Shown: in pieces, positions 16,544-48,314 of the stretch
Layout of the letters: each line of letters starts with the position of its first letter
Numbering within the stretch: position 1 is the first letter of the stretch
From: Nothopassalora personata
Taxonomy: Eukaryota > Ascomycota > Dothideomycetes > Mycosphaerellales > Mycosphaerellaceae
Assembly: GCA_033816765.1 (NCBI GenBank)
Contig: CM066290.1
Span: 4,030,001 to 4,094,000 of the forward strand
Direction: 5' to 3'
Length of the DNA: 64,000 nucleotides
The notes under the pieces: generated by a model
Told to the model about the DNA's origin: nothing
What the model saw: the letters and a program-made list of their open reading frames with translations, nothing else
Database searches by the model: none
Position numbers and translations under genes: made by a program

Positions 16544-17257
16544 GCGACCGGAGGGAGTTATGTAATACTTAGGCTTACGTATCGACATTAAACACAGTTT
16601 TCTAGACATAAGTAATCGTTAACGGACATAAGACTAGTGTTATAATCGACTTAGGAGTAGCGGGGAATTTTATCTCCGAGTCTTTTATAAGAAGAAACGG
16701 GTTAGCTACCCTAAAGAAGAAATGGGGTTACGAGTTAATCGCGGTAAACGGATTATCGTTACCTAGCGTAGAATAGGAGACGATACTATTACTACTAGCT
16801 ATCTAATAGTACTACGAGAATATTACCTTAGATGTTACTAATATAGCCAGTTATAACATAGTATTAGGTATACCTTAGTTAAGAAAGCACAATCTAGTAA
16901 TCGACTAGAGAAGAGGAGTACTTATATTTAGGGAATGCGATTGCGTTATCGACATTTAGCCTACGTAGTAGTAGCGTTTACTAGTAGATAAGGTAAGGAA
17001 ATAGCTAAACGAGATATAGCTTACGCCGACTAGAAGGATAGAAGAACTACCTTCGACCGGAATAGACACTAGCGTAGGGCCGCCGGGTTACGAAGTTACT
17101 AGAAGTAATAGAAGTAACGCACTATCGAAGAATACTAACATCTTAGAGTTAAGTATTCCTAAGGAGTATCGTAAGTAGTCGCGACTCTTTAAAGAGGAGA
17201 GAGGCAAAACCGCCTTACCTAAGTACCGCCTATAGGATTATAAGATCAACATTTAGC
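16540..17257 (+). pseudogene. Element 1 pol remnant, part 1 (protease)
   Basis: ATG 16540 overlaps the gag stop. The protease ghost reads VIIDLGVAGNFISESF (DSG in the young copies). The frame runs to KINI (followed by TAG for Gln) at 17257, where the second Gypsy element entered; TTAGC (17253-17257) is its target duplication. Confidence 0.85.
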
Positions 17258-17449
17258 TGTCACGAAGCGACCTTGATTTGGATGTTCGGTCACGTGATCA
17301 GGGTCACGTGATCTCCCGGCGCTAGCGCGACGCCTCGGCGCTTTGCTTTATCTTTCGTACTTCGCGCGTTACCTCTAGATACTTCGTCTAACTACGTCTC
17401 TATTCCCTACACCCTACGTTTCCCTCTTACACTCGTAGGCCTCGTGTCA
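17258..17449 (+). repeat. Gypsy-2 left (5') LTR
   Basis: It starts TGTCACGAAGCG and ends GCCTCGTGTCA. It holds two direct copies of GGTCACGTGATC, giving CACGTG E-boxes at 17291-17296 and 17305-17310, and a TTTATCT TATA-like site near 17347. Confidence 0.95.
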
Positions 17450-17460
17450 GTTAGTTAGAC
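17386..17460 (+). promoter_or_regulatory. Candidate self-priming pair (LTR site and PBS)
   Basis: No TGG-type tRNA primer site follows the LTR. Instead TAGTTAGAC at 17452-17460, two bases after the LTR end, is the exact reverse complement of GTCTAACTA at 17386-17394 inside the LTR, about 38 bp below the TATA-like site. This is the arrangement of Tf1/sushi-type elements, whose mRNA 5' end folds back to prime reverse transcription. The nine-base match is visible; the function is inferred. Confidence 0.5.
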
Positions 17461-17604
17461 CACCCTTCTTTCCGATTATCTACATGCACTGCGCTGCAGA
17501 AACATCAGGAAAGTACCGCCGCTGCCGACTGCGACAGCGACTACTATAACTACCGACACACCTACCTACCCTTTCGCGACCCGATCTGCCAATCGCCCGC
17601 GATC

Positions 17605-20265
17605 ATGACTACAGACGACAACGAGCCCGGCGACGCCATCGCCGCAGCACTGAAGAGACATCAAGAACAACACCCCGAATCAACCAAGACTCGAGACGCC
17701 GAAATCGAGGAAGTTAGGCTCCGAGGGCGGCAAGCCCTGCGGCAGCACAAGAGCGAGGAAGCACTGAGGCGGCATGGCCTGAACGGCGAGGAAGAGCAGA
17801 CGCAGGATGCACCTGTCGTCGAGTCGCCGAAGTCACCACCTCAGTCTGGAGGACAGCCGCATGTGACAGTGCAGGCCGAAGAAGATGAGATCGACGATGA
17901 GCCCGAGGAGGACGAGATCGAGGATGAAGATGAGGATGATCTCGATACCAATTCGTCATACCAACTACCTCAAGGCATGTTCGACCTGCGCGAGCTAGAC
18001 GCGACAGGTGAAACCCAATTCAACGACGAAGAAGATGTAGCTACACGCATCTTCAAGCTCCAGGACATGCAGAAGTTGTTTGAGGAGTCCAAGTCAGGAG
18101 TCCCAGACTATGACAACACCGCAACTCAGTGGGCTACTCGAGTAGCCGCTGTCAGAAGCGCAGCAGCAGCTCTTCCAGCCTCCCGCGAGTCCAGAAGCCT
18201 GCAGCGACAAGCAGCGGCGTTGCCTTCGACTGTGCCAGGCCGTCGCCCATCACCCATCAACCGTGACCGTGACCGCCACGGTTTCACGACACGAACAGAG
18301 CAAGAGCTCGACAGCTCGCTCATGTCCGCTACATCGAGGATTGCATCCCAAGTCCCGGGTGCATACTCCCAAGATACTATCGGTCGTTCTCAGTCTCAAC
18401 CTCAAGAACGCCAAAGCCGTCGAGCGAGTCCAAAGCCATCGGTGTCCTACCCGGTTCTACCACCACGCGCCCCGACACCACCACTGCCAGCACCGAAGCC
18501 TGTGAAGGCTAAGGTGGGACCGAGTCCGCTACAACAGATGGAGTCCGCGGCAGAGCGAGAAGAACCGGAAGAGGACTACATCGACATGAATAACTTCGTC
18601 AACCACAACACCGACTACTACGAAGCGGAGGATTATCGGGCAGTCACCGCGAACGACTTCATCTCCAAAGTGCGGAAGCACCCAAACACCTGGCTGCAGG
18701 CCCTTAAGGATATGGGCGCCACGCTCATGGAAATTCAGGACAACTACGAACAGCTCGAGAACGTCTACAACCAGGACCAGGCTACCCACAGGAAGATCGT
18801 CAAGAATCTAAATAGCAAGATCTCTGATCTTCGCCAAGAAAACGACACTGCGGTCGGCAAGCTCGACACCGCAGCAGATCAGATCGAGGACCTGAATGAG
18901 AAGCTGAAGCAGGCACAGGAAGAAGCCAGAATCCACCTTGCCAACCTCAAGTCCGCGGAGACCGACTGTGACGGTTTCATGGACGACATCGACGAACGTG
19001 ACAACACCATTAAGCAGATGGCAGATCGCATCACGCAGCTGGAAGCACAGGTCGGCGCTACCGGTGCAGCACCTAAGCCTGCTAAGGGTACAGGCCTTCG
19101 TGAGAGCCGTCGCACCACCCCACAAGTCGAAAACGCATACAGCACCAACGGTGGACTGTTCGGCAACGGAGACGGAGGTCGCACTATTCGTGAGACCGGC
19201 ATTCGCACTCCTGCCCCGGGCATCAACCGGAGTGTTCGCCCAACACCTGCGCTGTCAACGTCCTCTTCGTACTTCTACCAGTCCAAAACAAAGCGCGATC
19301 ACCCCGAGAAGTTCGACAACAACGGCAAGCCACCGTACAAGAACTGGAAGATCGCTATGGATGGTAAGATTCGCGCGTCTTATGATGAGAGCACGCCCAT
19401 GTTCGAGATCCTCGATTACGTCCGCGACCGCACTTCCGGCTTCCCTTTCGACTTCACGGACGCCAACATCAACAGCGAAGCTTGGGAGTCATTGGAACAG
19501 ATGTGGGCAGATCTCGACAAGCAGTTCGGTGACAAGGACACAGTAGAGAAGGCGCAAGCAGAGCTCGCCAACCTGAAGATGGTGAACACCGAGACCTTCA
19601 CCGCATTTGTCACTAAGTACAAGACTCTATGTTTGAAGGCAGGAGAAGAGATGTCATCCCGCAAGCTGTGGACACGTCTCACACCTAAGTGGCAGAACGA
19701 GCTCAAGAAGGAGCGTGGTGACTCTTTCGCCGAGTTCCAACAAGCTGGCTACGATCTCGAGGAGAGTGATCAGCTCATCAAGATGTACAAGCCCGAAGCA
19801 CCGGCTCCCCCTACAGGCAATGGCAATGGCAACCGCAACACCCGTGGCCGCGGTGGCAGCGCACTAGGCAACACTACCATCATCGGTAATGCCGCCATGA
19901 CCACATCCAACACCGAGACCGGCAACGAGCGAAAGAACAAGAAGCGCAGCGAGCCAGTTACCCGCATCCTGCCTGCCTCTTGGAAAGTGGTCGGTCAATT
20001 GACCAAGGAACAGAAGGAAGCAATGGCAGCTAATGGCCAATGCTGGCGCTGTCGTCGTACCGACCGTACGCACGTCTTGCCACAGGATCCAGCTTGCCCC
20101 TTCCACTACAACAAGGGCAATTGGGACTTCAGCAACCTCATTACTAGAGAGATGAGCGTCGACGAGTTCCGCCGTCAGCATGGTGTGGGCGACACTACTC
20201 GCCTCGCCGCCCTTGCCACCGAAGCACCAACAGCAGCCCCCGACCAGGGAAATGCTCAGGCTTAG
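17605..20265 (+). CDS. gag: Gypsy-2 Gag, 886 aa
   Basis: ATG 17605 is the first ATG after the 5' LTR and opens an 886-codon frame to TAG 20263-20265. The N-terminal ~130 residues are charged, with an acidic run (EDEIEDEDEDDLD). A Pro/Arg-rich linker follows, then a long coiled coil at about 363-485 (heptads in LNSKISDLRQEND, QIEDLNEKLKQAQEEARI). The capsid-like domain at about 560-730 begins KRDHPEKFDNNGKPPYKNWK. Near the C-terminus C813-x2-C816-x6-H823-x7-C831 is a non-standard knuckle in place of the usual CCHC box. The expected role is to form the virus-like particle and package RNA. At 886 aa it is larger than most fungal Gypsy Gags because of the N-terminal and coiled-coil parts. Pol lies in the -1 frame. 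Confidence 0.92.
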   Translation: MTTDDNEPGDAIAAALKRHQEQHPESTKTRDAEIEEVRLRGRQALRQHKSEEALRRHGLNGEEEQTQDAPVVESPKSPPQSGGQPHVTVQAEEDEIDDEPEEDEIEDEDEDDLDTNSSYQLPQGMFDLRELDATGETQFNDEEDVATRIFKLQDMQKLFEESKSGVPDYDNTATQWATRVAAVRSAAAALPASRESRSLQRQAAALPSTVPGRRPSPINRDRDRHGFTTRTEQELDSSLMSATSRIASQVPGAYSQDTIGRSQSQPQERQSRRASPKPSVSYPVLPPRAPTPPLPAPKPVKAKVGPSPLQQMESAAEREEPEEDYIDMNNFVNHNTDYYEAEDYRAVTANDFISKVRKHPNTWLQALKDMGATLMEIQDNYEQLENVYNQDQATHRKIVKNLNSKISDLRQENDTAVGKLDTAADQIEDLNEKLKQAQEEARIHLANLKSAETDCDGFMDDIDERDNTIKQMADRITQLEAQVGATGAAPKPAKGTGLRESRRTTPQVENAYSTNGGLFGNGDGGRTIRETGIRTPAPGINRSVRPTPALSTSSSYFYQSKTKRDHPEKFDNNGKPPYKNWKIAMDGKIRASYDESTPMFEILDYVRDRTSGFPFDFTDANINSEAWESLEQMWADLDKQFGDKDTVEKAQAELANLKMVNTETFTAFVTKYKTLCLKAGEEMSSRKLWTRLTPKWQNELKKERGDSFAEFQQAGYDLEESDQLIKMYKPEAPAPPTGNGNGNRNTRGRGGSALGNTTIIGNAAMTTSNTETGNERKNKKRSEPVTRILPASWKVVGQLTKEQKEAMAANGQCWRCRRTDRTHVLPQDPACPFHYNKGNWDFSNLITREMSVDEFRRQHGVGDTTRLAALATEAPTAAPDQGNAQA

Positions 20266-20288
20266 AGTCAAGTCGCGACCCTAAGCCT
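20247..20288 (+). promoter_or_regulatory. Candidate -1 ribosomal frameshift signal at gag end
   Basis: In gag frame the bases 20247-20253 read G-GGA-AAT, an X-XXY-YYZ slippery heptamer, four codons before the gag stop. After a 4-nt spacer, AGGCTTAG (20258-20265, holding the stop) pairs fully with CTAAGCCT (20281-20288); GTC/GAC inside adds three pairs. A -1 slip enters the pol frame, which has no stop from here to the pol ATG at 20316 and beyond. Sequence features are visible; frameshifting is inferred. Confidence 0.6.
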
Positions 20289-20315
20289 TGCTCAAACGAA
20301 GAACATGAAGAAGAG

Positions 20316-23300
20316 ATGAACCTTTGCACCCTAAGAGATGACGATTATGACAACAACGAACTTGCACTGTCTTGTGCCGAGACAGCAGGAGGCATCCAGA
20401 ACGTCACTGTCCAGCCTAGACAGGGCAAACACCTTGTATGCTCTGCAAAGGTACACAGTAGACTAGGACCTCATAATGCAAAAAGTTTGATCGACACAGG
20501 CGCAACAGACCTCTTCATCCATAACAACTTCGTGCGCACACATCACCTTGACCTTATCCCTCTTGCGAAACCTAAGCGTTTGCGACTTGCGGACGGGCAC
20601 CGCTCTATGATAACACATGCAGTCCTCGTCACCCTGGACGTCGGAGCACATCGCGACCAGGATCTGTACTACGTTACAGACCTTGACACATATGACATCG
20701 TCATCGGAATGTCATGGCTAGAACAACATGACCCCGAGATCAGCTTCAAGAACAGGACAATGACCTTCAACAGCACGAACTGCTGCTTGAACCATAACTT
20801 CAGAAGTCTGGTCTGCGTCGTAACAATAGATCGTCGCGGCAAGACCCACAACGTCGACCCTGACTTTCACAGCTCTGATGATATCGACATCGTCAGTGCG
20901 CAAGCGTTCATGAAGATGTCAAAGGATAAGGACAATCAGCTCTTTGCCCTTTGGCCTGAAGACCTAACACCACCACCTGACGACGTCCCACCCGAACCAC
21001 CCGATAAGCCGCCACCGCAAGATCCGTTTGGGGGGGAGGGAGAACAACTTTCATGCTTCGCGATGGCGCCAGAGGACTGGGAACGCTTCATGACAGCGTG
21101 CAAGAAGTCGAACCCAGAAGAAAAGCTGCCAGCAGTGCTTAAGGATCTAGCTCTGTACTTCAAGCACAAGTCGGAGTTTGTACTGCCTGAGCATGGTCCT
21201 AGTGACCATGAGATTAAGCTCAAACCAGGTACTACACCGCCTTATCGCAAGATGATCCCAATGAATGCTGAGCAGTTGGCCGTGGTACGGAAGTTTCTCG
21301 ACGATGGCCTTGCAAACGGTTCATTGCAAGAAAGCAAGTCGCCCTGCGCATCACCACTGCTCATTGTCAAGAAGCCTGGTGGTGGACTGCGCGTATGCGT
21401 CGATTACAGAGCATTGAACGCCCTCACGATTAAGGACCGATATCCTATTCCTTTGATCCGAGAAACCCTGGATCGTCTGGCTAAGGCCAAGATGTTCTCG
21501 AAACTCGACATCGTAGCAGCATTCAACAACCTTCGCATTGCGCATGGACAGGAATGGCTGACAGCCTTCATCACAAGATATGGCCTCTACGAGTTCAAGG
21601 TTATGCCGTTCGGGCTCTGCAACGGGCCAAGCAGTTGGCAGAGACGAATCAATGAAGTACTGCGAGAGTACCTCGATCGGTTCTGCACAGTCTATCTTGA
21701 CGATGTTCTCATCTACAGCGACAGCGAAGAAGAACATGTCCAGCACGTACGAGCAGTCATTAAGAAAGTAGGCGAAGCCGGTATGCCTATCGACATTGAC
21801 AAGAGCGAATTCTTCGTCAAGAAGATCAAGTACCTTGGCCTTATTGTCACTACCGAAGGTATCGAGATGGATCCAGTTAAGGTTGAAGCAATCCAGAACT
21901 GGGAGACACCCCGGAACGTCAAGGACGTCCTTGCGTTCCTCGGGTTCAGTGGTTTCTACAGACGCTTCATCTATGAGTATTCAAGAGTCGTGCGCAAGCT
22001 CACAGCACTGACAAAGAAAGATACACCCTGGCAGTGGGACGAGGGATGCCAGCAAGCATTCGATAAGCTGAAGAAGCGATTCGTCTCAGCACCAATCCTG
22101 GCACACTTCCAACCAGGACTGGAAGTTTGGATTGAGACGGATGCGTCAGACTACGTAACTGCAGGCGTTCTGTCCCAGAAGCACCCAGATCCGGAGAAGG
22201 AAGGCGAGTTTCTGCTCAAGCCGATAGCCTACTTCTCCAAGAAGATGAGTCCGCAAGAATGCAACTACGACATCTACGACAAGGAGCTGCTCGCTATTGT
22301 CAAGACGTTCGAAGAATGGCAGTACGAACTAGTGCCAGAGGCGGATGACCAGAAACCCATCCGAGTGCTGTCAGATCACAAGAACCTGGAGTGGTTTATG
22401 TCCACGAAGCAACTCAACCAGCGCCAGGCTAGGTGGGCCGAGTTCCTGTCACAATTCAACTTCAAGATCACGTATCGACCGGGCGTCCAGGGCACCAAAC
22501 CGGACAGCCTGACGAGACGCTCCCAAGACCTGCCTGAAGGGATTGATGCACGGACACAGTACCGCGAACAAACCATCTTGAAGCCGGATAACCTGGATAT
22601 AGTCTCCGCATTCGCAATCACCACGGACCCGCCTACAGAACCTCGACGAAGCGCTAGGCTGGCCAACAAAGCGAACGACGAGAATGCGGACGACGAGAAT
22701 GCGAACATCCCCGAAGTCCCAAAAGATGACGAGCATAAGGCACCTGAACAAGCGCTAGAAGACGGGTCAGATCTGGCGACAGTCCCTGACCAGCCAACGC
22801 CCAACGAGCCAGACACTCCCAAGGAAGACTGGCCGGAGTTGCAGCAACCAGCAGACTCGGACGACAACGTGCTCTCAATGCTCAATACAGCTTACAAGGA
22901 CCCACGCTTCAGCATGCGTATGAAGCGCCTTCAGAAAGATCTCCGCGACCGCAAGACGTCTGAGTTTCTGCAACAGCGCAAGATTACAGCTTCAGAGTGC
23001 CGCATGCAAGACGGGAGGCTGTACGTGAACAACAGGCTGTTTGTGCCGGAATACCGCAACCTACGCACAAAGATAGTGCAGAGCTACCATGACGCGCCTC
23101 TTGCTGGGCATCAAGGCATGGCACGCACACACGAACTGATTCTACGCCATGACCTATGGTGGCCTTTCATGCAGAAAGACATCACCCAATACGTGCGCAA
23201 CTGCTACATCTGTAGGAGATCAACACCGTCTCGTTCACGGTACCAAGGGACGCTCTCCGCCCATCGTACACCACCGGACGTCTGGAAACACGTCGCCATG

Positions 23301-24821
23301 GACTTCATAGTCGACCTGCCGCCTAGCAAATCTCGCAGAGATGGCAAGACATACACCAATATCCTGACAGTAACAGACATGCTCTCCAAGCAGGTGCACT
23401 TCATCCCTACGGACCGTATGGATGCAGAACACACAGCTGACCTGTACTACCATTACATTATGCCCCATCACGGCGTCGCAGAAATATTTGTGTCAGACCG
23501 CGGGACGCAGTTTGTAAGCGCCTTCTGGGAACGACTCTGCCAGCGGCTCGGCATCAAACAAAACCTGTCAACTTCCTTCCACCCAGAGACCGACGGTCAA
23601 TCGGAGCGAACTAACCAAGCGTTAGAGCAATACTTGCGAGCTTTCAGTAACTATCTCCAGGACGACTGGGTTAACTGGCTGCCGACCGCGGAATTCGCGA
23701 TGAACAACCATGTAGCTGCCAGCACAGGCGTTACACCATTCTTTGCGAACACAGGAAGGCACCCGAGCTTAGGGATGAATGTGAAGCCATCTGAAGCCCG
23801 TCCACAAGTCACGGCAGACAAGGTGAAACAGCTTGATGCAGCCGACACCTTTGCAGACAACCTCAGAGACTTTGAGCAATTCACACAGGCCGTGCTCGAG
23901 CAAATGCGAGCGGAGCACGCTTGGACCCAAGCCAAGAACACGGATCAAGCTAATGTGGCACGTGCACCCGCACCAAATTTCCAAAAGGGCGACAAAGTCT
24001 TCCTCGACGCACGCAACATCCGCACTACACGACCATCCAAGAAACTCGACAGTAAAGCATTCGGTCCCTTCGAAGTCGTCGAGCCTATTGGGCGCCGTTC
24101 CTACCGCCTGCGATTCCCACCTAACTCTGATCTCGCCCACCTCCACGATGTTTTCCACTCGAGTCTCCTACGCCGCGCACCCGAAGACCCGCTGCCTGGA
24201 CAGCACCTGCCGCCGCCGCCGCCGCTCGAAATAGTAAGAGATGGTAAAGAATCGACTGAATGGGAAGTTCAAGAGGTGGTTGACTCAAGGATAAAATACC
24301 GCAAAGTCTGGTACAAGGTTTTGTGGAAGGACGGCACAATGAGCGAACGCCCATACACCTCACTGCTGCCAGGTGCTGAGGAGCTGGTGCAAGAATTTCA
24401 CCGCGCATACCCAGACAAGCCACGACCTACGGAGGTTGACGATGAGTTCATGGCGCACGTATTTAGCGTCTCAGTTTATGGTCTCGCAGTGATCTCCGGA
24501 GACGCCACACCGCCTACGAAGTCCACGCCTCCTTTCTACTCACTCGCAGAAGGCATTCGGCTGGATGGAAGTTCTTCAAAGCGGCCTACCTCTTCAATGG
24601 GTCAGACCATGCAACAACACTCGCACACCAGCAGTCAGCCGTCATATGATGAGCAGCGAACAAGCAATACCAGCAAGCACGCAAGTGCAACTGGCACGCA
24701 ACGCAATAGCCTGAACGACGTCGCAGGAGCTCGTCTCGTGGAGGGGGGGGTACTGTCACGAAGCGACCTTGATTTGGATGTTCGGTCACGTGATCAGGGT
24801 CACGTGATCTCCCGGCGCTAG
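20316..24821 (+). CDS. pol: Gypsy-2 Pol polyprotein, 1501 aa
   Basis: The order is protease (LIDTGATDLFI, D60-T-G), reverse transcriptase (about 310-500, YLDD at 460-463), RNase H (IETDASDY, D609), integrase and a C-terminal module. The integrase zinc finger has H925, H932, C963 and C966. Its catalytic set is D996, D1061 and E1097 with the usual 35-residue spacing. A GPF module near 1248 (FGPFEVVEPIGRRSYRLRF) is followed near 1311 by a divergent chromodomain (WEVQEVVDSRI, WYKVLWKDGTMSERPY) lacking the usual WEP. All key residues are present. ATG 20316 is the first Met in this frame, 50 bp past the gag stop, but the frame is open further up and Pol is more likely made by frameshifting. The last 22 codons lie inside the 3' LTR. 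Confidence 0.93.
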   Translation: MNLCTLRDDDYDNNELALSCAETAGGIQNVTVQPRQGKHLVCSAKVHSRLGPHNAKSLIDTGATDLFIHNNFVRTHHLDLIPLAKPKRLRLADGHRSMITHAVLVTLDVGAHRDQDLYYVTDLDTYDIVIGMSWLEQHDPEISFKNRTMTFNSTNCCLNHNFRSLVCVVTIDRRGKTHNVDPDFHSSDDIDIVSAQAFMKMSKDKDNQLFALWPEDLTPPPDDVPPEPPDKPPPQDPFGGEGEQLSCFAMAPEDWERFMTACKKSNPEEKLPAVLKDLALYFKHKSEFVLPEHGPSDHEIKLKPGTTPPYRKMIPMNAEQLAVVRKFLDDGLANGSLQESKSPCASPLLIVKKPGGGLRVCVDYRALNALTIKDRYPIPLIRETLDRLAKAKMFSKLDIVAAFNNLRIAHGQEWLTAFITRYGLYEFKVMPFGLCNGPSSWQRRINEVLREYLDRFCTVYLDDVLIYSDSEEEHVQHVRAVIKKVGEAGMPIDIDKSEFFVKKIKYLGLIVTTEGIEMDPVKVEAIQNWETPRNVKDVLAFLGFSGFYRRFIYEYSRVVRKLTALTKKDTPWQWDEGCQQAFDKLKKRFVSAPILAHFQPGLEVWIETDASDYVTAGVLSQKHPDPEKEGEFLLKPIAYFSKKMSPQECNYDIYDKELLAIVKTFEEWQYELVPEADDQKPIRVLSDHKNLEWFMSTKQLNQRQARWAEFLSQFNFKITYRPGVQGTKPDSLTRRSQDLPEGIDARTQYREQTILKPDNLDIVSAFAITTDPPTEPRRSARLANKANDENADDENANIPEVPKDDEHKAPEQALEDGSDLATVPDQPTPNEPDTPKEDWPELQQPADSDDNVLSMLNTAYKDPRFSMRMKRLQKDLRDRKTSEFLQQRKITASECRMQDGRLYVNNRLFVPEYRNLRTKIVQSYHDAPLAGHQGMARTHELILRHDLWWPFMQKDITQYVRNCYICRRSTPSRSRYQGTLSAHRTPPDVWKHVAMDFIVDLPPSKSRRDGKTYTNILTVTDMLSKQVHFIPTDRMDAEHTADLYYHYIMPHHGVAEIFVSDRGTQFVSAFWERLCQRLGIKQNLSTSFHPETDGQSERTNQALEQYLRAFSNYLQDDWVNWLPTAEFAMNNHVAASTGVTPFFANTGRHPSLGMNVKPSEARPQVTADKVKQLDAADTFADNLRDFEQFTQAVLEQMRAEHAWTQAKNTDQANVARAPAPNFQKGDKVFLDARNIRTTRPSKKLDSKAFGPFEVVEPIGRRSYRLRFPPNSDLAHLHDVFHSSLLRRAPEDPLPGQHLPPPPPLEIVRDGKESTEWEVQEVVDSRIKYRKVWYKVLWKDGTMSERPYTSLLPGAEELVQEFHRAYPDKPRPTEVDDEFMAHVFSVSVYGLAVISGDATPPTKSTPPFYSLAEGIRLDGSSSKRPTSSMGQTMQQHSHTSSQPSYDEQRTSNTSKHASATGTQRNSLNDVAGARLVEGGVLSRSDLDLDVRSRDQGHVISRR
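24739..24750 (+). promoter_or_regulatory. Gypsy-2 polypurine tract
   Basis: TGGAGGGGGGGG lies three bases before the 3' LTR, the expected plus-strand primer. It is also coding in pol (VEGGV). Confidence 0.8.
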
Positions 24822-24945
24822 CGCGACGCCTCGGCGCTTTGCTTTATCTTTCGTACTTCGCGCGTTACCTCTAGATACTTCGTCTAACTACGTCTCTATT
24901 CCCTACACCCTACGTTTCCCTCTTACACTCGTAGGCCTCGTGTCA
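24754..24945 (+). repeat. Gypsy-2 right (3') LTR
   Basis: 192 bp, by eye identical to 17258-17449; followed by the target duplication TTAGC. Confidence 0.95.
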
Positions 24946-25180: not shown

Positions 25181-25664
25181 TGTTATGTCTCGTTCCAGGG
25201 CTAATCTCAAAAGAGAGATAAGTCAAGTCACGTGGCGGTATTCTTTGGAGAGGCTAAAGCAAACTGAGCGAAGATGAATAATTGGAGTAAGAGTGTATTC
25301 CAATCAGTGAGATCGTAACATGAGTTGAACGCAGTCGAAGCCATAAGGGATTCTCAGCGTTCCTAAATACAAAGGAGATTTGCCAGTCTTGGCTGTCCTT
25401 TCGCGCCATGTGCGCCTTCTGCGACAAGTGCGCTCGTCGCTACCGTCGCGGACGTCGCTCATGTCGCGGGTACGTCTTTCGCGCTATGCGCGACGAGTCG
25501 TCCCCAGTCAGGCGTCGCGGACGTCGCGCATACATCTTTTGCACGTGACCCGTGCCAGGATGTTTTCCCTTGCGGTGTTGTCATACCGTAACAGTCGCGC
25601 ATACATCTTTTGCACGTGACCCGTGCCAGGATGTTTTCCTTTGCGGTGTTGTCATACCGTAACA
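25181..25664 (-). repeat. Copy A 3' LTR (484 bp, with 71-bp U3 duplication)
   Basis: The plus strand reads TGTTATGTCTCG...CATACCGTAACA. The terminal 71 bp (element U3 start) is present twice in tandem (25523-25593 and 25594-25664, differing at one base), which repeats the element end TGTTACGG and its CACGTG box (25542, 25613). Another CACGTG is at 25229. Confidence 0.93.
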
Positions 25665-25676
25665 CCATCCCCCTCT
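25665..25676 (-). promoter_or_regulatory. Copy A polypurine tract
   Basis: In element sense AGAGGGGGATGG directly precedes the 3' LTR. The same tract is at 39101 and 52537 in the other copies, and as AAAAGGGGGATAG in element 1. Confidence 0.75.
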
Positions 25677-25728
25677 TAGCCTAGCTCGTCCCGAGCTACC
25701 TTTTATAGTTGTGATCGCTTTCCCCACC

Positions 25729-26370
25729 ATGTCTTCGTCATCATGGCTCACGATGCCTCTTCGCCCTTCGTCTTCTTCTGATATCTACGCGGAAACCATT
25801 AACGCCCTTTCTCGTTCTCGCCGGTTCCAATCCATTATGCCCGTCTCGTGCAGTCGGTGTCGTCGCCAGGGCCAGGAGTGTCGTGTCGACGCTCGGTCCG
25901 GTCGTTGCAAGGCGTGCAACGACGCTCACAAGAAGTGTGATCTCCGGGTCACTCTTCAGGAGTTCGAGAAGATGGCCAAGATCCGGGAGTCGCTGTCCAG
26001 GAGTGCGGAAGAGGCGGAGGACGCTCTGTCCGAAGCAGAAGAAGAGGCCGAGAGGGTGATAGCAGCGGCTCAGCAGAAGGTGGCAGCTGCCCGTGCGAAG
26101 GCCCGCCGGCTGCGAAAACAGCTTCGTGCCGCGGAATCAACGGAGGACAATTCCTTCAAGAGGGCTTTGTCCACCGCGGAGGAGATGGAGCGTCTGGAAG
26201 GAGAGTCTGAGGCCCCCGCGGCCTCGGCCGGTAGCGAGGTGCTCGTAGACTTCTCCGAGTTTGGCAGCGTTTTTGGGGAACAGGTTTCCCCCTCCACTTG
26301 GGGTCTTATAACTGGTGTCCAGTTCCCCGAGTGGAGTGCTGGCCCCGTTGAGCCTCCGAATGTTGGTTAG
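25729..26370 (+). CDS. Antisense Zn(II)2Cys6 coiled-coil protein, 213 aa (copy A)
   Basis: This gene lies inside the chromovirus between pol and the 3' LTR, antisense to gag-pol. ATG 25729 has a strong context (CCACCATG), and the stop overlaps the pol stop tail to tail by two bases. Cysteines 41, 44, 51, 60, 63 and 70 give C-x2-C-x6-C-x8-C-x2-C-x6-C, a full GAL4-type binuclear zinc cluster. A long Ala/Glu/Arg coiled coil follows at about 78-150, then an acidic tail with aromatic residues (VDFSEFGSVFG). This is the build of a DNA-binding dimer with a possible activation tail, acting in the nucleus; that role is inferred. GAGCT and TTTATAGTT just upstream are also seen in element 1. The old relative keeps a ghost of the same gene (34925-35482), so it is not a recent capture. 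Met82 here is Ile in the other copies. Confidence 0.85.
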   Translation: MSSSSWLTMPLRPSSSSDIYAETINALSRSRRFQSIMPVSCSRCRRQGQECRVDARSGRCKACNDAHKKCDLRVTLQEFEKMAKIRESLSRSAEEAEDALSEAEEEAERVIAAAQQKVAAARAKARRLRKQLRAAESTEDNSFKRALSTAEEMERLEGESEAPAASAGSEVLVDFSEFGSVFGEQVSPSTWGLITGVQFPEWSAGPVEPPNVG

Positions 26371-29300
26371 GTGGTAGGTCTCTTCCTTCTCTCGTAATCC
26401 TTGATTTTCTGTTGACAGTTTCGTAGGTGTTTTTTCGGTTCCCAGGTATTTTCTGAGTTGTCGTATCCTTTCCACTTGACAAGGTATCGCTGACCTCTCT
26501 TGTCCAGGATTTTTTCGACTTCGAATTCAGTTTCCTCTTCTGGTTGGTAGTGGAATGTTTCCTGGCATGGCGTTTTGGGGTCTGCTGGTTCCAGCACGGA
26601 GATGTGGAACACTGGATGGATTTTGGCATCTTTTGGTAGTCGTAGTCGGTAGTTGACTGGTCCTCGTGATTCTTCAACGAGAAATGGCCCGACTTTCACA
26701 TGATCCAGTTTCTTGGTCTTCCTTCGTGTCTTGAGGTTTTTTGTAAGAAGGTAGACTTTATCCCCCCTCTTTAGCTGAGGTGCCATTTGTTGTTTTCGAC
26801 GAGATTCAGTGAGTCGTTGCTGCGAGTCCCGAATTCGTTTATTGACGGATTTGTGTACCTCTCTTAGGTCTTCCGTTGTGGCGATAGCCCTTTCCGCTTG
26901 TGGGTGATCTCTCTTGTCACCGAACAGCGTAGGGTGTCTTCCGAAATTTGCGAAGAAAGGTGTTTCGCCTGTTGTTTCTGATTTGTGATTGTTCAGTGCA
27001 AGTTGTGCCATGGGTAGGAGTGATACCCAGTTGTCTTGTGCGTAGTTGACGTAGTGTCGTAGGTATTGTTCCAAGGTTTGATTTGCTCTCTCAGTTTGTC
27101 CGTCCGTTTGTGGGTGATATGCCGTAGACAGTTTGTGTTGTATACCAATTTCCGCTACAAGAGTCTTCCAGTAGTTGGATGTAAACAGCTTGTCTCGGTC
27201 TGTGATAAAGACCTTTGGGAATCCGTGGTATCGTACTAGCTTGTCGAGAACGAGATAACCGAGTTGCTCTGCCGTGTATGTCTCGCAGGCAGGTATAAAG
27301 TGTGCATATTTCGTTAGGCGATCGACCATGACCAGTATCATGTCGTATTCCGTGCCTGTCGCCTTGTCCGTGGATATGGGAAGTTTCGTAATGAAGTCCA
27401 TCGTGACCTCGTCCCATGGTTGTGTCGGTGGTGTCCTGAACTGTATTTGTCCATATTTCTCGTGTCGTGCAGCCTTATTTTGTTGACAGTGAACACATTG
27501 CTTAATGTAGTTCAATACCTTTTGTCTCATTTGTGGGAATGAGAAGCTGCGTTGTATGATCTCGAGAGTCTTTGTGGTTCCAGGATGTCCGTACATCGGG
27601 TTGTCGTGATGTTGTCGTATGCATTCCTCTTCTCGTCCTTTCGGTACTTGGTATCTTCCTTGTGCTAGTGGGAACTGTTCTTCTGTGTCCTGAAGAACGC
27701 GCACTATGTTGTTGAACTCCTTTGTGTTGGCGCTTAGACTTCCATCTGGATTAGTCTTAAGTACTTGTTGTCGCACTGGTTCCTTTCCTTCCATGTAGTC
27801 GCTTCTTCGGCTCAGTGCGTCGGCCCTGCCGTTGTCTTTTCCTGCGGTATAGCGGATTTCAAACTTGTACTGTCCGAGCAATTCCGACCAGCGGGCCTGT
27901 CTTCGGGTCAGTACTTTCGTTGTAGTGAAGTAAGTGAGATTCTTGTGATCAGAAAGAATCGTCAGCTTAGGTGCTCCTTCCGCATATACTCTCCAGTGCT
28001 GCATTGCAGCGACAATAGCGAGAAGTTCCTTATCATGGATGTCGTAGTTTTGTTCCGCGGGTGTCATTTTTCTTGAGTAATAGGCCACTGGGTGTCTTTT
28101 CCCATCGTGTTCTTGTGTAAGGCATGCGCCTATGGCCATGTCCGATGCGTCCGTTTCGATTTGGACTTCCTTTGTTCCGTCGAATAGTCGAAGTGTTGGT
28201 GCTGAGGCGCACTGTCTTTTGAGTGTTTCGAAAGCTTGTCGTTCTTTGTTGCCCCAGGTCCACTTGGTGTCTTTCCTAGTGAGTGCAGTCATGGCTGCAG
28301 CCGTTTTGGAGTAGTCTTTGATGAACTTGCGGTTATAGTTTGCGAGTCCAAGGAACGATTGTACGTCCTTAACGTTGGCTGGCGTCGGCCATTCTTCGAT
28401 AGACTGTGTCTTTGTCGGGTCGATCTGGATTCCTGTTGTGCTTATGATGAATCCGAGGAATTTAACTTGTTTCTTGTGGAACTCGCATTTTTCTGGTGCC
28501 GTCTTGAACCCTACCCTTGTGAGGCGCTCGAAGACGTCCTGGACTTGTCTAATGTGGTTCTGCAGTGATCCTTTGGTGTAGACGAGGATGTCGTCCATAT
28601 AGGCAATGACGCACACGTCAAGAAGTTCTCTCAGCGTCTCATTGACTAGGTCTTGACAGGATGCGGGTGCGTTGGTCAGTCCCATTGGCATGACCAAGAA
28701 TTCGTAGAGTCCGTATCGTGTTCTGAATGCGGTTTTCCATTCCTCTCCTTCCGCCATCCGGATGGCGTAGAAGGCGTCTCGTAGATCGATCTTTGTGTAC
28801 CAGTCGGATCCGGTGAGTCGGTCCTGTGCTTCTTCGATGTTCGGTAATGGATATCGGTTCTTTATCGTGATCTCGTTCAATTTTCGGTAGTCTTGTACGA
28901 GTCGTAGTTTCCCGTTTTGTTTTGGAACAAACATACATGGAGTTCCCGCACTTGAGGTGGATCTTCTTATCCATCCTTTGTCGAGTTTCTCCTTCAGCCA
29001 TTCTCGTAGGGTTTTGAGCTCTTTCTCGGACATTTGATATAGGGGTCCCCATGGAGGCTCCTTCCCTGGCTGAATGTTTATCTTGTGGTCCCATGGTTGG
29101 TGTCTAGGTAAGGCGTCTCTACCCTTTTCCTCTTCAAAGAGCCTTTTCCACTTAAGGTACTCCTTGGGAATGCTTGGTTCCGATATACCAGCATCCTTCG
29201 ATGGTGCGTTACTTCCATCCGTTCCAGTGATTTCGTGATCCGGCGGCCCCACGCCAGTATCTATCCCGGTCGAAGGTGGTTCTTGATTCCTTCTGTTCGG

Positions 29301-29786
29301 CGCAAGCTCGAATGCGTTGAGCTGTTTCCTTGCCTCATCTACCATCGTCCGCTGTCGATGCGTAGGTTCAATGCCTATAACGCAGTTGCATTGCCTAAAT
29401 GTGAGTACTCTTCTCCTCCAGTCGATAACTGGATTGTGCTTTCTCAACCAAGGCATACCTAATACTATGTCATGACTGGCCATATCAGTAACATCCAAGG
29501 TAATGTTCTCGTGGTGCTGTTGGATAGCCAGTGGCAATGGTGTCGTCTCCCATTCCACGCTAGGTAACGATGATCCGTCTACCGCGATCAATTCGTAACC
29601 CCATTTCTTCTTCAGGGTAGCTAGCCCGTTTCTTGTTGTGAAAGACTCGGAAATAAAGTTCCCCGCTGCTCCGGAGTCGATCATGACACTGGTCCTGTGT
29701 CCGTTGACGATTGCTTGTATCTGGAAAACTGTGTTTGGTGTCGATGCGTGAGCCTGAGTGTTGCATAACTCCCTTTGGTCGCTCAT
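26367..29786 (-). CDS. pol: Chromovirus Pol polyprotein, 1139 aa (copy A)
   Basis: ATG 29786 overlaps the gag stop (AATGA). Domains run protease (MIDSGAAGNFI, D37), reverse transcriptase (about 245-440, YMDD 396-399), RNase H (IETDASDM, D546), integrase zinc finger (H726/H727, H734, C764, C767) and integrase core (D797, D863, E899, 35-residue spacing). A GPF module follows near 1033. A canonical chromodomain at about 1087-1130 (EFEVEKILDKRGQRYLVKWK, then NTWEPKKHL) should direct insertion to methylated-H3 heterochromatin, as known for chromoviruses. All catalytic residues are present. Compared with the other copies it has Thr458 for Ala and Ala497 for Thr. Pol may be made by termination-reinitiation or by -1 frameshifting at 29804-29810. 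Confidence 0.94.
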   Translation of the reverse strand: MSDQRELCNTQAHASTPNTVFQIQAIVNGHRTSVMIDSGAAGNFISESFTTRNGLATLKKKWGYELIAVDGSSLPSVEWETTPLPLAIQQHHENITLDVTDMASHDIVLGMPWLRKHNPVIDWRRRVLTFRQCNCVIGIEPTHRQRTMVDEARKQLNAFELAPNRRNQEPPSTGIDTGVGPPDHEITGTDGSNAPSKDAGISEPSIPKEYLKWKRLFEEEKGRDALPRHQPWDHKINIQPGKEPPWGPLYQMSEKELKTLREWLKEKLDKGWIRRSTSSAGTPCMFVPKQNGKLRLVQDYRKLNEITIKNRYPLPNIEEAQDRLTGSDWYTKIDLRDAFYAIRMAEGEEWKTAFRTRYGLYEFLVMPMGLTNAPASCQDLVNETLRELLDVCVIAYMDDILVYTKGSLQNHIRQVQDVFERLTRVGFKTAPEKCEFHKKQVKFLGFIISTTGIQIDPTKTQSIEEWPTPANVKDVQSFLGLANYNRKFIKDYSKTAAAMTALTRKDTKWTWGNKERQAFETLKRQCASAPTLRLFDGTKEVQIETDASDMAIGACLTQEHDGKRHPVAYYSRKMTPAEQNYDIHDKELLAIVAAMQHWRVYAEGAPKLTILSDHKNLTYFTTTKVLTRRQARWSELLGQYKFEIRYTAGKDNGRADALSRRSDYMEGKEPVRQQVLKTNPDGSLSANTKEFNNIVRVLQDTEEQFPLAQGRYQVPKGREEECIRQHHDNPMYGHPGTTKTLEIIQRSFSFPQMRQKVLNYIKQCVHCQQNKAARHEKYGQIQFRTPPTQPWDEVTMDFITKLPISTDKATGTEYDMILVMVDRLTKYAHFIPACETYTAEQLGYLVLDKLVRYHGFPKVFITDRDKLFTSNYWKTLVAEIGIQHKLSTAYHPQTDGQTERANQTLEQYLRHYVNYAQDNWVSLLPMAQLALNNHKSETTGETPFFANFGRHPTLFGDKRDHPQAERAIATTEDLREVHKSVNKRIRDSQQRLTESRRKQQMAPQLKRGDKVYLLTKNLKTRRKTKKLDHVKVGPFLVEESRGPVNYRLRLPKDAKIHPVFHISVLEPADPKTPCQETFHYQPEEETEFEVEKILDKRGQRYLVKWKGYDNSENTWEPKKHLRNCQQKIKDYERRKRPTT

Positions 29787-29810
29787 TCCTGGGGAGCTGA
29801 TCCTTTTCCC
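29783..29810 (-). promoter_or_regulatory. gag/pol junction: ATGA overlap and G-GGA-AAA heptamer
   Basis: The gag stop TGA and pol ATG share ATGA. Six codons upstream of the gag stop, G-GGA-AAA in gag frame (29804-29810) is a possible -1 slippery site, and the pol frame is open from there. The old relative keeps the ATGA but has C-GGA-AAA, so reinitiation is the better-conserved option. The same junctions are at 43219-43246 and 56655-56682. Confidence 0.5.
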
Positions 29811-31789
29811 GAATGGTATGTGGTTCGCTGTGCTTCGTGCCTAGAGGCTTCGGCTAGAACCTGTAGCCCGTTGCCCTGTGTCCACACTTGTAGTCTGTTG
29901 CGTTCCTGGATCTTCTGCGATTCTGAGTAGAGAGCCTGTACATGCTGTACTGCTGTTCGTAGTTCGTTTGAGACGAAAGTTCCTGCTGGTGTTAGGTATC
30001 CGGTACCTGTCATCCGGCTTCCTATGGGTGGTCGTTCGACAACCGCTTTAGCCAAGTTCTCAGTGTCGTTCATGGTTGGGTAGCCCCACACCATGCCCCT
30101 CATCGTGTCGAGTGTCTTGTCGAACTCGCTGGGGTTTAGGTATCGTTTCCCTGAGAACTTTGGTAGGAATTCTTCATGCCTTCGTTGGAGGTAGATGATT
30201 AACTCATAGAGCTTTCTTGGCGCGTCTACCGTGAACGTGCATACTTCGTTTTCGTCGTCGGTGTCGCTCTCTTCTCCTTCGGATGAGTCCTCGCTTGACT
30301 CTTCCGGTACGTAATCTTCTTCAATAGTGTCCAGCTTGTTCGTTTGTTGTTCGGGAGCTGGTGACCAGCGTCCGTTCCATTCTGGATCCTGGTTTTCTTT
30401 GTCGTCGTCGAAGTAAGATTCGTCTACATCCACTTCCTGGAGCTTGTTTCGTCCATGTTGTGCTCCCAGGGTTCCTGCTGGCTGTTGTGGCCAGTACCCT
30501 GCGCCTGCTTTGGCGTCGTAGTGGGTTTTACACGAGTCCTAGTAACAGAAACGCCAATGAAGGCTTCCGTGACCATGTCGAGACTCTTTCTCGACTTCAT
30601 GGTTGACTCCTCGTGCCATCATGCCAAACAATCTGATCTTGATGTCGATCTCTGATTGTTGGTCATTCGGTGGTGGTGTATGTTGTTGAACATGGTGTCC
30701 TCCTCGTCCTTGTGAGGGGTCCAGGAGAGGCGTCGCAACCCGGTTGCTATCCTTCTCCTCCACTCTCTGGGTATAGTTGAATTGTCGGGGTCCAACACTG
30801 CTCCCAGATTTGTCCACCTTTGGTTGCATCATATTGAACTGCTCGCGGCGCACCATATTTTTACCGCGGCAATCCCGCGCCATGTGGCCTTCTTTGCCAC
30901 AGGCGTAGCATGTGAGTTTTCCTTTTCCTTTGAAGGGCTTTCCGTGGCCCCTACTCTTATCGATCTTCCGTCCTCGTTGGGTAGCGTCCAGTTCCATTGG
31001 CTGTGGTCCATAGTAGGGCTGGCTTTGTCGTGAGAATCCTCCCCTCGCAACGTACCCCCCTGAGGGTTTGCGATCTGGAGCGTATCCTGCCATGCCTCCT
31101 ACCTTGGAGTCGTATTTCTTTTCCTGGTACCGTTCCCAGAGCTGATCGTCGATGTCGATCGACGCCTTCATCAGTCCTTCGAGGTTGGTGATCGCTCCTC
31201 CGTGTCTCATCAACTCGTCCTTGACGGAGTCCTTGAGTCCACGTCGGAACATAGTCATCAACGCCGTCTGGTCCCATCCGGTGATCTGTCCGTATTCTTC
31301 GAATTTGGCGGCGTACTCTGAAGTAGACGTCTTCTGCTTCAGGTGTTGAATGATTCGTATGGCCTGTTGGACTTCGTTCGAGGTTCCAAAGATTGACTTC
31401 ATCTTGTCTTTGAAAAGGGTGTAGTTCCTGAACATTCCGGTGGGGTCTAATCGTCCCATACCGTCGAGGTATTCCTTGAGGTAAGGTTTGATCCAGTTCT
31501 GCGCACTTCCGCGAAGGAACGTGATGGCGAAGATAGTTCTTTTGTCGGTGTCGACTGGGTTGAACATGAGGTACATGTCCATCTGGTTGACCCAGTCGTC
31601 GAACTTGGCCCTATCTCCATGGAAGAGGTCCGGCTTAGCAGCCTTAACGTCGCTCTTCCTTGGAGTAGGCTCGTCATCGTCATCAGACTCATCGTCCTTC
31701 GTGGTGGTCTGTCGTGGTGGCGCACGGCGGATGCTTCCTGCTTCGCTGGGGGCGGGTGTTCCCCTACCAGCTGCTTGAGTAGCGCTCAT
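29783..31789 (-). pseudogene. gag: Chromovirus gag with a nonsense codon (copy A)
   Basis: ATG 31789 (MSATQAAGRG) lies 17 bases past the 5' LTR. The frame is as in the other copies except for TAG at 30539-30541 where they have CAG, a CA-to-TA (RIP-type) change, plus a Gln-to-Lys change at 30529. The truncated product would be 416 aa and still hold the capsid-like region (about 55-210) and the CCHC knuckle (C294, C297, H302, C307). It would lack the acidic C-terminal ~250 aa and the junction to pol, so Pol could not be made from this copy without readthrough. Confidence 0.9.
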
Positions 31790-31796
31790 CCTGAGG

Positions 31797-31958
31797 GCGT
31801 TCAAAGTGTTATGTCTCGTTCCAGGGCTAATCTCAAAAGAGAGATAAGTCAAGTCACGTGGCGGTATTCTTTGGAGAGGCTAAAGCAAACTGAGCGAAGA
31901 TGAATAATTGGAGTAAGAGTGTATTCCAATCAGTGAGATCGTAACATGAGTTGAACGC
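31797..31958 (-). promoter_or_regulatory. Candidate self-priming pair (copy A)
   Basis: In element sense TTGAACGC (31797-31804), two bases past the 5' LTR end, is the reverse complement of GCGTTCAA in the LTR (31951-31958), which lies about 30-38 bp below a TATA-like GTATTTA. No tRNA-type TGG site is present. The old element 1 keeps the pairing in RIP-mutated form (TTAAACGC/GCGTTTAA). Same design and same 2-nt gap as Gypsy-2. Confidence 0.5.
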
Positions 31959-32290
31959 AGTCGAAGCCATAAGGGATTCTCAGCGTTCCTAAATACAAAG
32001 GAGATTTGCCAGTCTTGGCTGTCCTTTCGCGCCATGTGCGCCTTCTGCGACAAGTGCGCTCGTCGCTACCGTCGCGGACGTCGCTCATGTCGCGGGTACG
32101 TCTTTCGCGCTATGCGCGACGAGTCGTCCCCAGTCAGGCGTCGCGGACGTCGCGCATACATCTTTTGCACGTGACCCGTGCCAGGATGTTTTCCCTTGCG
32201 GTGTTGTCATACCGTAACAGTCGCGCATACATCTTTTGCACGTGACCCGTGCCAGGATGTTTTCCTTTGCGGTGTTGTCATACCGTAACA
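31807..32290 (-). repeat. Copy A 5' LTR (484 bp)
   Basis: By eye identical to 25181-25664, including the 71-bp duplication; followed by target duplication CTAAC. Confidence 0.93.
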
Positions 32291-34798: not shown

Positions 34799-34804
34799 AA
34801 CGGA

Positions 34805-34878
34805 CGACTAGAGTAGGAATCGAACCTACGACCTTAAGAGTATAGACAGCTTACGCTCTACTACTAAGCTACCTAGCC
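34805..34878 (-). ncRNA. tRNA-like sequence (RIP-altered tRNA or SINE head)
   Basis: The minus strand reads GGCTAGG TA GCTT...GAGC G, then a 24-nt middle, then GTAGG TTCGATT CCTAC TCTAGTC G. The acceptor stem pairs over 7 bp (two G-U), the D arm and the T arm (5 bp, TTCGATT loop) are well formed, and A and B boxes are recognisable. The anticodon arm is abnormal (a 4-bp stem with an 11-nt loop), so no identity can be given and it is probably not a working tRNA. Repeated at 48241-48314. Confidence 0.4.
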
Positions 34879-34924
34879 GATTAATAAGAATAGGGACATA
34901 ACTCACAAATAAATACCCTTACGA

Positions 34925-35482
34925 AGGAGACGGCTAAGCTACCGACGGCACCGTCTCGCTAGAAGGAGAAAGCTAGAAGTCGTCCGGAAGACCTTCGATA
35001 GCACTCTAGGTCTACGGAGATAAGGATAGATTAGGAGCACTAGGATCCGCGTCTACTATAGCGTACTCCTACGCCCCTAGATCCTCGTCTAGTAACAACC
35101 GATCTTCTAACGAACGACCCTCCGCAACCTTCTAATTAACCGCATCTAATTGCTTACGAAGGCGCATTTCCTTTATATACGCTTCTATTAAGGCATCCTA
35201 CCTTTTACTAAGAATCCTCTTCGCGGTATCTAGTTCCCATAACAATTTCTTCCGCTAAAGCGATAAGCGCTTCTACTCGCCCTCGGTTACCCCCGTATTA
35301 CAACTCTTTAGATTCCGTTACTAGTACTTAGAATAGCGACTAGATAAGATGTGTACCTTACACACACGGCCCTCCTTTTAATAAGAATTATACGGACGTA
35401 TCGCGGTATCGCCGTTACGGAAGATCTACTAGGCTTTCTTCTTACGGCGAGCGGTAGATTTAGATTAGGAGGAAGAAGACAT
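34925..35482 (-). pseudogene. Element 1 antisense zinc-cluster gene, RIP ghost
   Basis: The frame starts at ATG 35482 (MSSSS, as in the young gene), 76 bp from the LTR. Codons 31, 34, 41, 50, 53 and 61 read Tyr, Tyr, Cys, Tyr, Tyr, Cys with spacing x2-x6-x8-x2-x7. The Tyr codons TAT/TAC are what TGT/TGC become under RIP, so the ancestral pattern was a Zn2Cys6 cluster spaced like the young one except for the last loop. A coiled-coil-like segment follows (ILSKR-stop-DALIEAYIKEMR, RLRKQLDAV) and an acidic end. Apart from the start, cluster and coiled coil the sequence is strongly diverged. Stops at Gln codons inactivate it. Repeated at 48361-48918. Confidence 0.75.
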
Positions 35483-39164: not shown

Positions 39165-39806
39165 ATGTCTTCGTCATCATGGCTCACGATGCCTCTTCGC
39201 CCTTCGTCTTCTTCTGATATCTACGCGGAAACCATTAACGCCCTTTCTCGTTCTCGCCGGTTCCAATCCATTATGCCCGTCTCGTGCAGTCGGTGTCGTC
39301 GCCAGGGCCAGGAGTGTCGTGTCGACGCTCGGTCCGGTCGTTGCAAGGCGTGCAACGACGCTCACAAGAAGTGTGATCTCCGGGTCACTCTTCAGGAGTT
39401 CGAGAAGATAGCCAAGATCCGGGAGTCGCTGTCCAGGAGTGCGGAAGAGGCGGAGGACGCTCTGTCCGAAGCAGAAGAAGAGGCCGAGAGGGTGATAGCA
39501 GCGGCTCAGCAGAAGGTGGCAGCTGCCCGTGCGAAGGCCCGCCGGCTGCGAAAACAGCTTCGTGCCGCGGAATCAACGGAGGACAATTCCTTCAAGAGGG
39601 CTTTGTCCACCGCGGAGGAGATGGAGCGTCTGGAAGGAGAGTCTGAGGCCCCCGCGGCCTCGGCCGGTAGCGAGGTGCTCGTAGACTTCTCCGAGTTTGG
39701 CAGCGTTTTTGGGGAACAGGTTTCCCCCTCCACTTGGGGTCTTATAACTGGTGTCCAGTTCCCCGAGTGGAGTGCTGGCCCCGTTGAGCCTCCGAATGTT
39801 GGTTAG
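39165..39806 (+). CDS. Antisense Zn(II)2Cys6 coiled-coil protein (hybrid copy)
   Basis: 213 aa from ATG 39165, identical to the copy B gene and differing from copy A at residue 82 (Ile for Met) with no other change seen. The zinc cluster Cys 41, 44, 51, 60, 63, 70 and coiled coil are intact. It ends tail to tail with pol. The function is as inferred for 25729. Confidence 0.85.
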   Translation: MSSSSWLTMPLRPSSSSDIYAETINALSRSRRFQSIMPVSCSRCRRQGQECRVDARSGRCKACNDAHKKCDLRVTLQEFEKIAKIRESLSRSAEEAEDALSEAEEEAERVIAAAQQKVAAARAKARRLRKQLRAAESTEDNSFKRALSTAEEMERLEGESEAPAASAGSEVLVDFSEFGSVFGEQVSPSTWGLITGVQFPEWSAGPVEPPNVG

Positions 39807-48182: not shown

Positions 48183-48240
48183 AACGGCGTTTACTTAAAG
48201 TTACTATACTATAAGATATAGTAACTTTTAAGCAAACGGA

Positions 48241-48314
48241 CGACTAGAGTAGGAATCGAACCTACGACCTTAAGAGTATAGACAGCTTACGCTCTACTAC
48301 TAAGCTACCTAGCC
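48241..48314 (-). ncRNA. tRNA-like sequence (duplicate)
   Basis: Duplicate of 34805-34878, with no difference seen. Confidence 0.4.

Follow-up and report, generated by a model that had tools for sequence, protein, structure and literature searches.

Why would a retrotransposon keep a gene on the strand opposite to its own gag and pol, and what could such a gene do for it? The question is raised by a 64,000-nucleotide stretch of the fungus Nothopassalora personata (contig CM066290.1, positions 4,030,001 to 4,094,000; hereafter the window), in which a chromovirus carries, between pol and its 3' long terminal repeat (LTR), an antisense open reading frame (ORF) for a protein of 213 aa with six cysteines and a predicted coiled coil. 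A first-pass annotation, made from the letters alone, had proposed that the element encodes its own Zn2Cys6 regulator. Our analysis supports this interpretation in part: selection on the gene and its presence in related elements are borne out, and its Zn2Cys6-like character is so to a lesser degree. We consider it somewhat probable that the product is a self-encoded DNA-binding regulator of the unique 3' (U3) region of the element's own LTR, most likely an activator or an anti-silencer.

An antisense six-cysteine gene and its family

The frame at 25729-26370 (+ strand) is open and has, as annotated, the exact spacing C-x2-C-x6-C-x8-C-x2-C-x6-C (C41, C44, C51, C60, C63 and C70). It abuts pol (26367-29786, - strand) and lies between it and the 3' LTR (25181-25664, - strand), on the strand opposite to both, in agreement with the placement first given. 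Two further copies of this type, F0, stand at 39165-39806 and 52601-53242 (both +), and each differs from the first by a single residue, M82I. The annotation had leaned on three young copies. Three copies there are in the window, but probably not as independent insertions: they recur with a period of 13,436 bp and, because the same 5 bp (CTAAC) stand on both sides of all three, they are most simply one insertion duplicated in tandem. With the shared target-site duplication (TSD) and the period, we do not count them as independent support for the gene.

A survey of related elements had been suggested, and it shows the gene recurring in many families genome-wide, in 18 types. These searches covered the organism's own genome (54.5 Mb, 40 contigs), and the copy counts are lower bounds. 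Among the best 150 of 391 candidates scored with the F0 protein, many matches are open; at least 16 are full-length at 100% rounded identity (three in the window array, 13 elsewhere), and the others are a few close relics and a remainder at 29-40% identity. Type F5 gave 150 matches (best 150 of 747 candidates), at least 32 of them at 98-100% identity, type F3 gave 150 (best 150 of 745) and type F11 gave 89 at E<=1e-30 (best 150 of 768). Many further family matches are disrupted by TAG and TAA codons. The mutation signature of repeat-induced point mutation (RIP) yields such stops, and these matches look like RIP relics, as expected. Public proteins include 20 unnamed relatives (E<=0.01) with identities of 33-60%; a profile search with alignment A2 in a 5.8-billion set returned 11 proteins, two of them new (7996 candidates scored), and a scan of IMG/VR for the cysteine pattern gave seven pattern matches, none of which was confirmed. 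The panel of 18 types includes both F3 and F3b, whose proteins are 97% identical and whose U3 regions differ. It excludes L040 (broken gene, F6), L042 (first part out of frame, F16) and the repeat types L044, L047 (gene shortened) and L048; L045 is omitted from the U3 panel only.

All six cysteines are kept in 18/18 types. In a 19-sequence alignment with a mean column identity of 30%, the invariant columns are these six and one arginine only, and on this comparison the conservation of the cysteines exceeds chance. The canonical Zn2Cys6 domain has its cysteines in two C-x2-C halves with an x6 first loop; here the first loop is x6 in 10 of the 18 types, F0 included, and x11-x13 in the other eight. 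A Zn2Cys6-like domain is indicated by a profile comparison and by weak fold matches, all of the latter to DNA-binding domains (alignment A1, made for the model, held P0001 and 18 of the 20 public matches, P0015 and P0019 being omitted; alignment A3 held ten host zinc clusters of the twelve fetched, L059 and L060 being omitted). Against this assignment stands the Pfam model PF00172 (Zn_clus), which scores F0 at 8.4 bits and the best of 11 element proteins (L045) at 20.4, under the curated cut-off of 21 bits. Pfam thus fails as proof of a Zn2Cys6 domain, and the identity first proposed draws its support from the weak fold matches and the profile comparison, not from a PF00172 search of the 213-aa protein. 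A sequence search of the PDB gave six weak matches (best E 0.35), none of them a zinc cluster.

Behind the cluster, the F0 model predicts a helix at residues 76-160 (predicted local distance difference test, pLDDT, 80-98 by block), which fits the coiled coil first annotated in F0; a coiled coil in this place is common in the Zn2Cys6 class. An acidic tail containing tryptophan is present in 15/16 types. We picture the product as a small protein of Zn2Cys6-like make that binds DNA, probably as a dimer, and in which a basic N-terminus with the zinc cluster would be followed by the helix of ~85 residues, forming the coiled coil, and by the acidic Trp tail.

The check on selection that the annotation had set came out in its favour, since selection across types is purifying. 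By the Nei-Gojobori method, the ratio of nonsynonymous to synonymous divergence (dN/dS) is lowest in the two closest pairs, 0.04 in F3/F3b (dN 0.02, dS 0.43) and 0.08 in F4/F6 (dN 0.07, dS 0.87), followed by 0.17 in F3/F11 (dN 0.30, dS 1.73) and 0.22 in F17/F19 (dN 0.33, dS 1.51); for pairs further apart the ratio is 0.25-0.48 or dS is saturated, and these values are unreliable. These values bear on the idea that the antisense RNA is the functional part, through double-stranded RNA (dsRNA) or silencing control, and the protein incidental. The available passages of PMC7264820 raise dsRNA for antisense ORFs generally, but ratios of 0.04-0.08 in the closest pairs, and six invariant cysteines despite types that are mostly 30-50% identical to each other, leave this idea next to no weight. 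A captured host zinc-cluster factor, carried as a mere hitch-hiker, is barely more credible. The host genome does hold 112 PF00172 matches (E<=0.001), but the gene keeps the same place and orientation and all six cysteines in 18 types, in chromoviruses as well as in the pol-less elements described below (own-genome searches, in which part of the matches were placed).

Carriers with and without pol

The chromovirus carriers (F0 in the window, L032, L038, L042, L062 and L064) have the gene beside pol, in the antisense position and orientation between pol and 3' LTR (aORF-3R); in L063 the pol piece beside it is rearranged. Beyond what had been annotated, there are mini-elements with gag and without pol that keep the antisense gene. 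They are ~2.4-2.5 kb long and consist of two LTRs (316-365 bp, left copies), a sense gag and the antisense gene; a match to F0 pol was looked for inside them and none was found. Their Gag, 329-330 aa long but cut to 234 aa in the L036 copy, matches Retrotrans_gag and the zinc knuckle. The LTR pairs are 95.7-100% identical, except in L034 (87.7%, internal repeats) and L049 (93%). Perfect 5-bp TSDs flank seven of eight minis as cut, and also the eighth (L031) with its boundary moved one base to TGTT; L034, L037 and L039 are inserted in pol of another chromovirus. TR-GAG is an LTR element with gag and without pol, and the minis resemble it in their LTRs, polypurine tract (PPT), gag, TSD and lack of pol, and additionally carry the antisense gene.

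The minis are abundant and well preserved, with at least 121 copies of their gag (121 scored of 1047 candidates) that are 98-100% identical, 120 of them without a stop. An antisense-family match is adjacent on the opposite strand in 63/121 copies, and seven regions sampled from the other 58 each have a similarly built six-cysteine gene in that slot (7/7), mostly of divergent types and shortened in L047. A partner that supplies pol to the minis was looked for and not found, the mini gag being 38% identical to the F0 gag over residues 53-312. Elements that have no pol and keep the putative regulator amount to a natural experiment, which suggests that the gene matters to the element.

The content of the minis could also be read otherwise. 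They retain just gag and the antisense gene, and the long predicted helix could serve as an assembly interface, as would suit a protein that works off the LTR, either as a partner of Gag or of RNA packaging or as a tether of integration complexes to chromatin. A protein that works together with Gag should change along with it, but the gene varies while gag stays 95-100% identical in nucleotides, and all fold matches are to DNA-binding domains; we regard a role away from the LTR as improbable. With a DNA-binding regulator, chromoviruses and pol-less, gag-only minis would share one regulatory system.

Two side observations concern the minis. Six mini gag copies on contig C12 (1356314-1367583) follow one another at an exact spacing of 2,056 bp, as a tandem mini-element array. 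The 8 nt after the 5' LTR, which read TTGAGCAC in 8/8 minis checked (L031, L033-L037, L039 and L041) and TTGAACGC in F0 (window 5' LTR), each have an exact complement in the element's own LTR, suggesting a putative self-priming with compensatory change.

The gene and U3 as a putative cassette

Conservation is strikingly uneven along the elements. In the 66 pairs formed by 12 mini types, nucleotide identity has a median of 99% in gag (95-100), 100% in the primer-binding-site leader (68-100) and 93% in R-U5 (62-99), but of 48% in the antisense gene (42-91), 55% in the stretch from gene to LTR (39-79) and 51% in the upstream U3 (38-82). Synonymous distances in gag and in the antisense gene are 0.028 versus 0.43 for F3/F3b, 0.170 versus 0.87 for F4/F6, 0.023 versus 1.51 for F17/F19 and 0.005 versus 1.73 for F3/F11. 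The chromoviruses F2, F13 and F16 likewise have pol proteins that are 97% identical (dS 0.07-0.16) and antisense proteins that are 35-38% identical. Since the synonymous distances of neighbouring genes differ 5- to ~350-fold, these data indicate exchange of segments, not fast evolution in place, and the antisense gene behaves as a cassette exchangeable between element families, something the annotation had not contemplated. This regulatory cassette would comprise the antisense gene, the PPT and the upstream U3. The variable block stops in U3, and the constant one extends from R-U5 into gag or pol. Given this layout, a switch of template in the course of reverse transcription would be a natural route for the exchange, most likely between co-packaged RNAs.

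What could the protein act upon? We compared the commonest hexamer of the upstream U3 with 500 doublet-preserving shuffles and found it over-represented in 15/18 types (<=7/500; in 13 types <=1/500), as in CGAGCA x18 (F19), CAAGAG x9 (F3) and CAGATC x8 (F7). An earlier test with a rough shuffle had given 16/18 and is superseded. No such enrichment was found in the U3 of F1b (40/500), F11 (102/500) and F17 (483/500), and the controls gave 0/18 within the ORF and 0/17 in R-U5. In F0, the U3 part of the 3' LTR of copy 1 (25379-25664, - strand, upstream of the R-U5 block) contains CGCGAC x6, matched by 0/500 shuffles; a 71-bp tandem duplication falls within it, and tandem duplications within the U3 of F0 and F7 raise their hexamer counts. 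The 71-bp duplication, at the PPT end of the LTR (window 25523-25664), is absent from the 3' LTRs of copies 2 and 3; the U3 of F7 (L038) likewise starts with a tandem duplication.

Whether these words follow the protein is less clear-cut. U3 word profiles correlate with protein identity by Pearson (0.27-0.35, reached in 7-79 of 5000 permutations, eight settings) and not significantly by Spearman (-0.02 to 0.17), and co-divergence of ORF and U3 by overall identity is not significant. Among the ten pairs whose proteins are closest to each other, six rank 1, 2, 6, 9, 10 and 20 of 153 in U3 words, and the remaining four rank 41, 76, 82 and 114. In F4/F13, F4/F6 and F3/F11 the words are explicable by shared descent, because U3 bases 9-60 are also alike (ranks 6, 11 and 2 of 153). 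The pairs F6/F13, F1b/F15 and F3/F3b, with word ranks of 1, 10 and 2 and ranks of 129, 84 and 139 of 153 for bases 9-60, fit candidate sites that follow their protein, with the proviso that they were chosen after the fact.

A regulatory role would fit these type-specific iterated motifs. The gene would be expressed from the opposite strand, probably via a promoter in or beside the 3' LTR, and its product most likely acts on the iterated U3 motifs of its own type, turning own-type transcription on or relieving silencing. We can tentatively extend this, at somewhat less than even chances, to a transposon-borne form of self-recognition, in which each zinc-cluster regulator and its matching U3 sites circulate as one cassette among chromoviruses and parasitic minis of the gag-only kind, and the cassette type, rather than the phylogeny of gag or pol, decides which elements are activated or desilenced together. 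The DNA-binding-like domain, the strong selection between closely related types and the adjacent candidate sites make the function of such an antisense gene directly testable.

The main rival explanation has the protein repress U3 of its own type, to control copy number or to exclude newcomers of the same type, its diversity being an escape from resident repressors; the immunity regions of phages offer an analogy. Such a repressor would suit the coexistence of many types in one genome, the association of the same gag or pol backbone with different cassettes, and the iterated type-specific words in U3. But the acidic Trp tail, in 15/16 types, suggests activation, and strong self-repression predicts something other than the many near-identical copies of single types, such as the F5 matches at 98-100% identity (at least 32). 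A repressor therefore seems unlikely to us, and the activator or anti-silencer remains our preferred reading.

Between the antisense ATG and the PPT (25665-25679, - strand, which is the sense strand, adjoining the 3' LTR) lies an inverted repeat, TAGCTCG-GGA-CGAGCTA in the window (25682-25698) and, for example, AGCTTCG-GGA-CGAAGCT elsewhere, whose arms covary across types. When 13 types are aligned, pairing holds in 87% of cells, and 0/500 shuffles reach the pairing or the covariation score; 5/7 pairs change on both sides, as 25/500 shuffles also do. The alignment used 13 of 15 types (F5 and F11 were left out as repeats of the F3 arm); F18 and F20 fall outside the set through a mismatch to the junction pattern, and F17 and F19 have no arm under the rule used. 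The repeat could form a hairpin in the RNA or serve as a palindromic site. Type-specific operators are not favoured, as F1, F3, F5, F9 and F11 share one arm and have very different proteins.

Known systems, relics and neighbours

Antisense genes at this position are already known. Zhao et al. (2011, Virology 417:248) reportedly described brtn, an additional antisense gene of Boty-like chromoviruses. In agreement with the annotation's mention of antisense ORFs in fungal Gypsy elements, the available passages of PMC7264820 include Boty, from Botrytis and Sclerotinia, in their list of elements whose antisense ORF stands between pol and 3' LTR, and those of PMC8365987, PMC4227169 and PMC5987419 mention brtn (PMC4227169 names 'brtn-106'). 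The likeness to brtn, which is likewise an extra antisense gene of a fungal chromovirus, is one of description, not of protein sequence; pol-less carriers and cassette exchange were found here, whereas the available literature passages hold none for brtn. Passages of PMC7264820 also describe plant antisense ORFs between pol and 3' LTR (Grande gene23, RIRE2 and Retand), for which no clear similarity to other proteins is described, although PvRetro13 is noted to have an SMC domain and Retand one of transposase 28; the Grande antisense protein is nuclear, its own promoter drives transcription, and the function of antisense ORFs is, according to this source, not known. Position and orientation are those of the fungal gene, in which a zinc-cluster-like domain is supported instead.

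HTLV is a retrovirus, and its HBZ is a basic leucine zipper (bZIP) regulator. An HTLV antisense promoter lies in the 3' LTR (PMC7264820, available passages). In both systems a coiled-coil regulator would be expressed in antisense from the side of the 3' LTR, a bZIP in HTLV and a six-cysteine protein here. A parallel in mode of working, not in sequence, is found in VANDAL, which are plant elements and not LTR retrotransposons. As far as the available passages go, VANDAL elements of Arabidopsis encode VANC, a protein that diverges among related transposable elements (TEs) and whose targets, which often form tandem repeats within non-coding DNA of the TE itself, also vary among related TEs; anti-silencing and binding have been shown in Arabidopsis (PMC5735166, PMC10398659). 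Our family, known here from sequence alone, shares a type-divergent protein and type-specific repeated motifs in its own non-coding DNA, candidate targets present in 15/18 types. The exchange of cassettes would be the LTR-retrotransposon counterpart of the VANC system. The words antisense, zinc finger and transcription factor do not occur in the available passages of PMC3248453, on fungal LTR elements, and among the matches listed from the open-licence PMC literature, and in the passages available, we found no zinc-cluster-like antisense gene in an LTR element, no cassette exchange and no gag-only carriers; to that extent, these appear to be new.

The window also holds a ghost of the gene in an older relative with RIP-type mutations (type F16/F12, 34925-35482, - strand). 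The annotation had described a frame there; its MSSSS start and the four of six cysteines turned to tyrosine hold, but not an open frame: because of 15 in-frame stops it is a relic. Its spacing, x2-x6-x8-x2-x7, equals that of the intact relative L064. The second array copy of the ghost lies at 48361-48918 (-), placed by tblastn matches from 48918 to 48394 and by the 13,436-bp period. Just downstream of the ghost frame is a tRNA-like gene with anticodon CTA (34802-34879 and 48238-48315, both -), scored by Rfam as tRNA at 51.1 bits and named tRNA-Pyl by ARAGORN, perhaps a RIP-altered tRNA. Elsewhere in the genome, 14 F11-like matches of equal score, each with four TAG and three TAA (contigs C9, C20, C21, C30, C31, C33, C34, C39 and C40), occur on small contigs or, in C9, close to its beginning, and in two pairs the distance is exactly 14,804 bases; they are a repeated unit holding a relic.

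The rest of copy 1 is that of a chromovirus. Its pol (1139 aa) has protease, reverse transcriptase, RNase H, integrase and chromodomain matches in Pfam. The gag region (29783-31852, -) is interrupted into 29783-30433 and 30539-31852, and is a single 689-aa frame in array copies 2 and 3. The 5' LTR (31807-32290, -) is followed by CTAAC, which also stands outside the 3' LTR. A different Gypsy element occupies 17257-24945, with a gag of 886 aa, a pol of 1501 aa and no chromodomain match listed; antisense frames of at least 150 aa were looked for in it, and the only one, of 169 aa, lies inside pol. A fragment of a Copia-type polymerase (RVT_2) lies at 61223-63943 (-).
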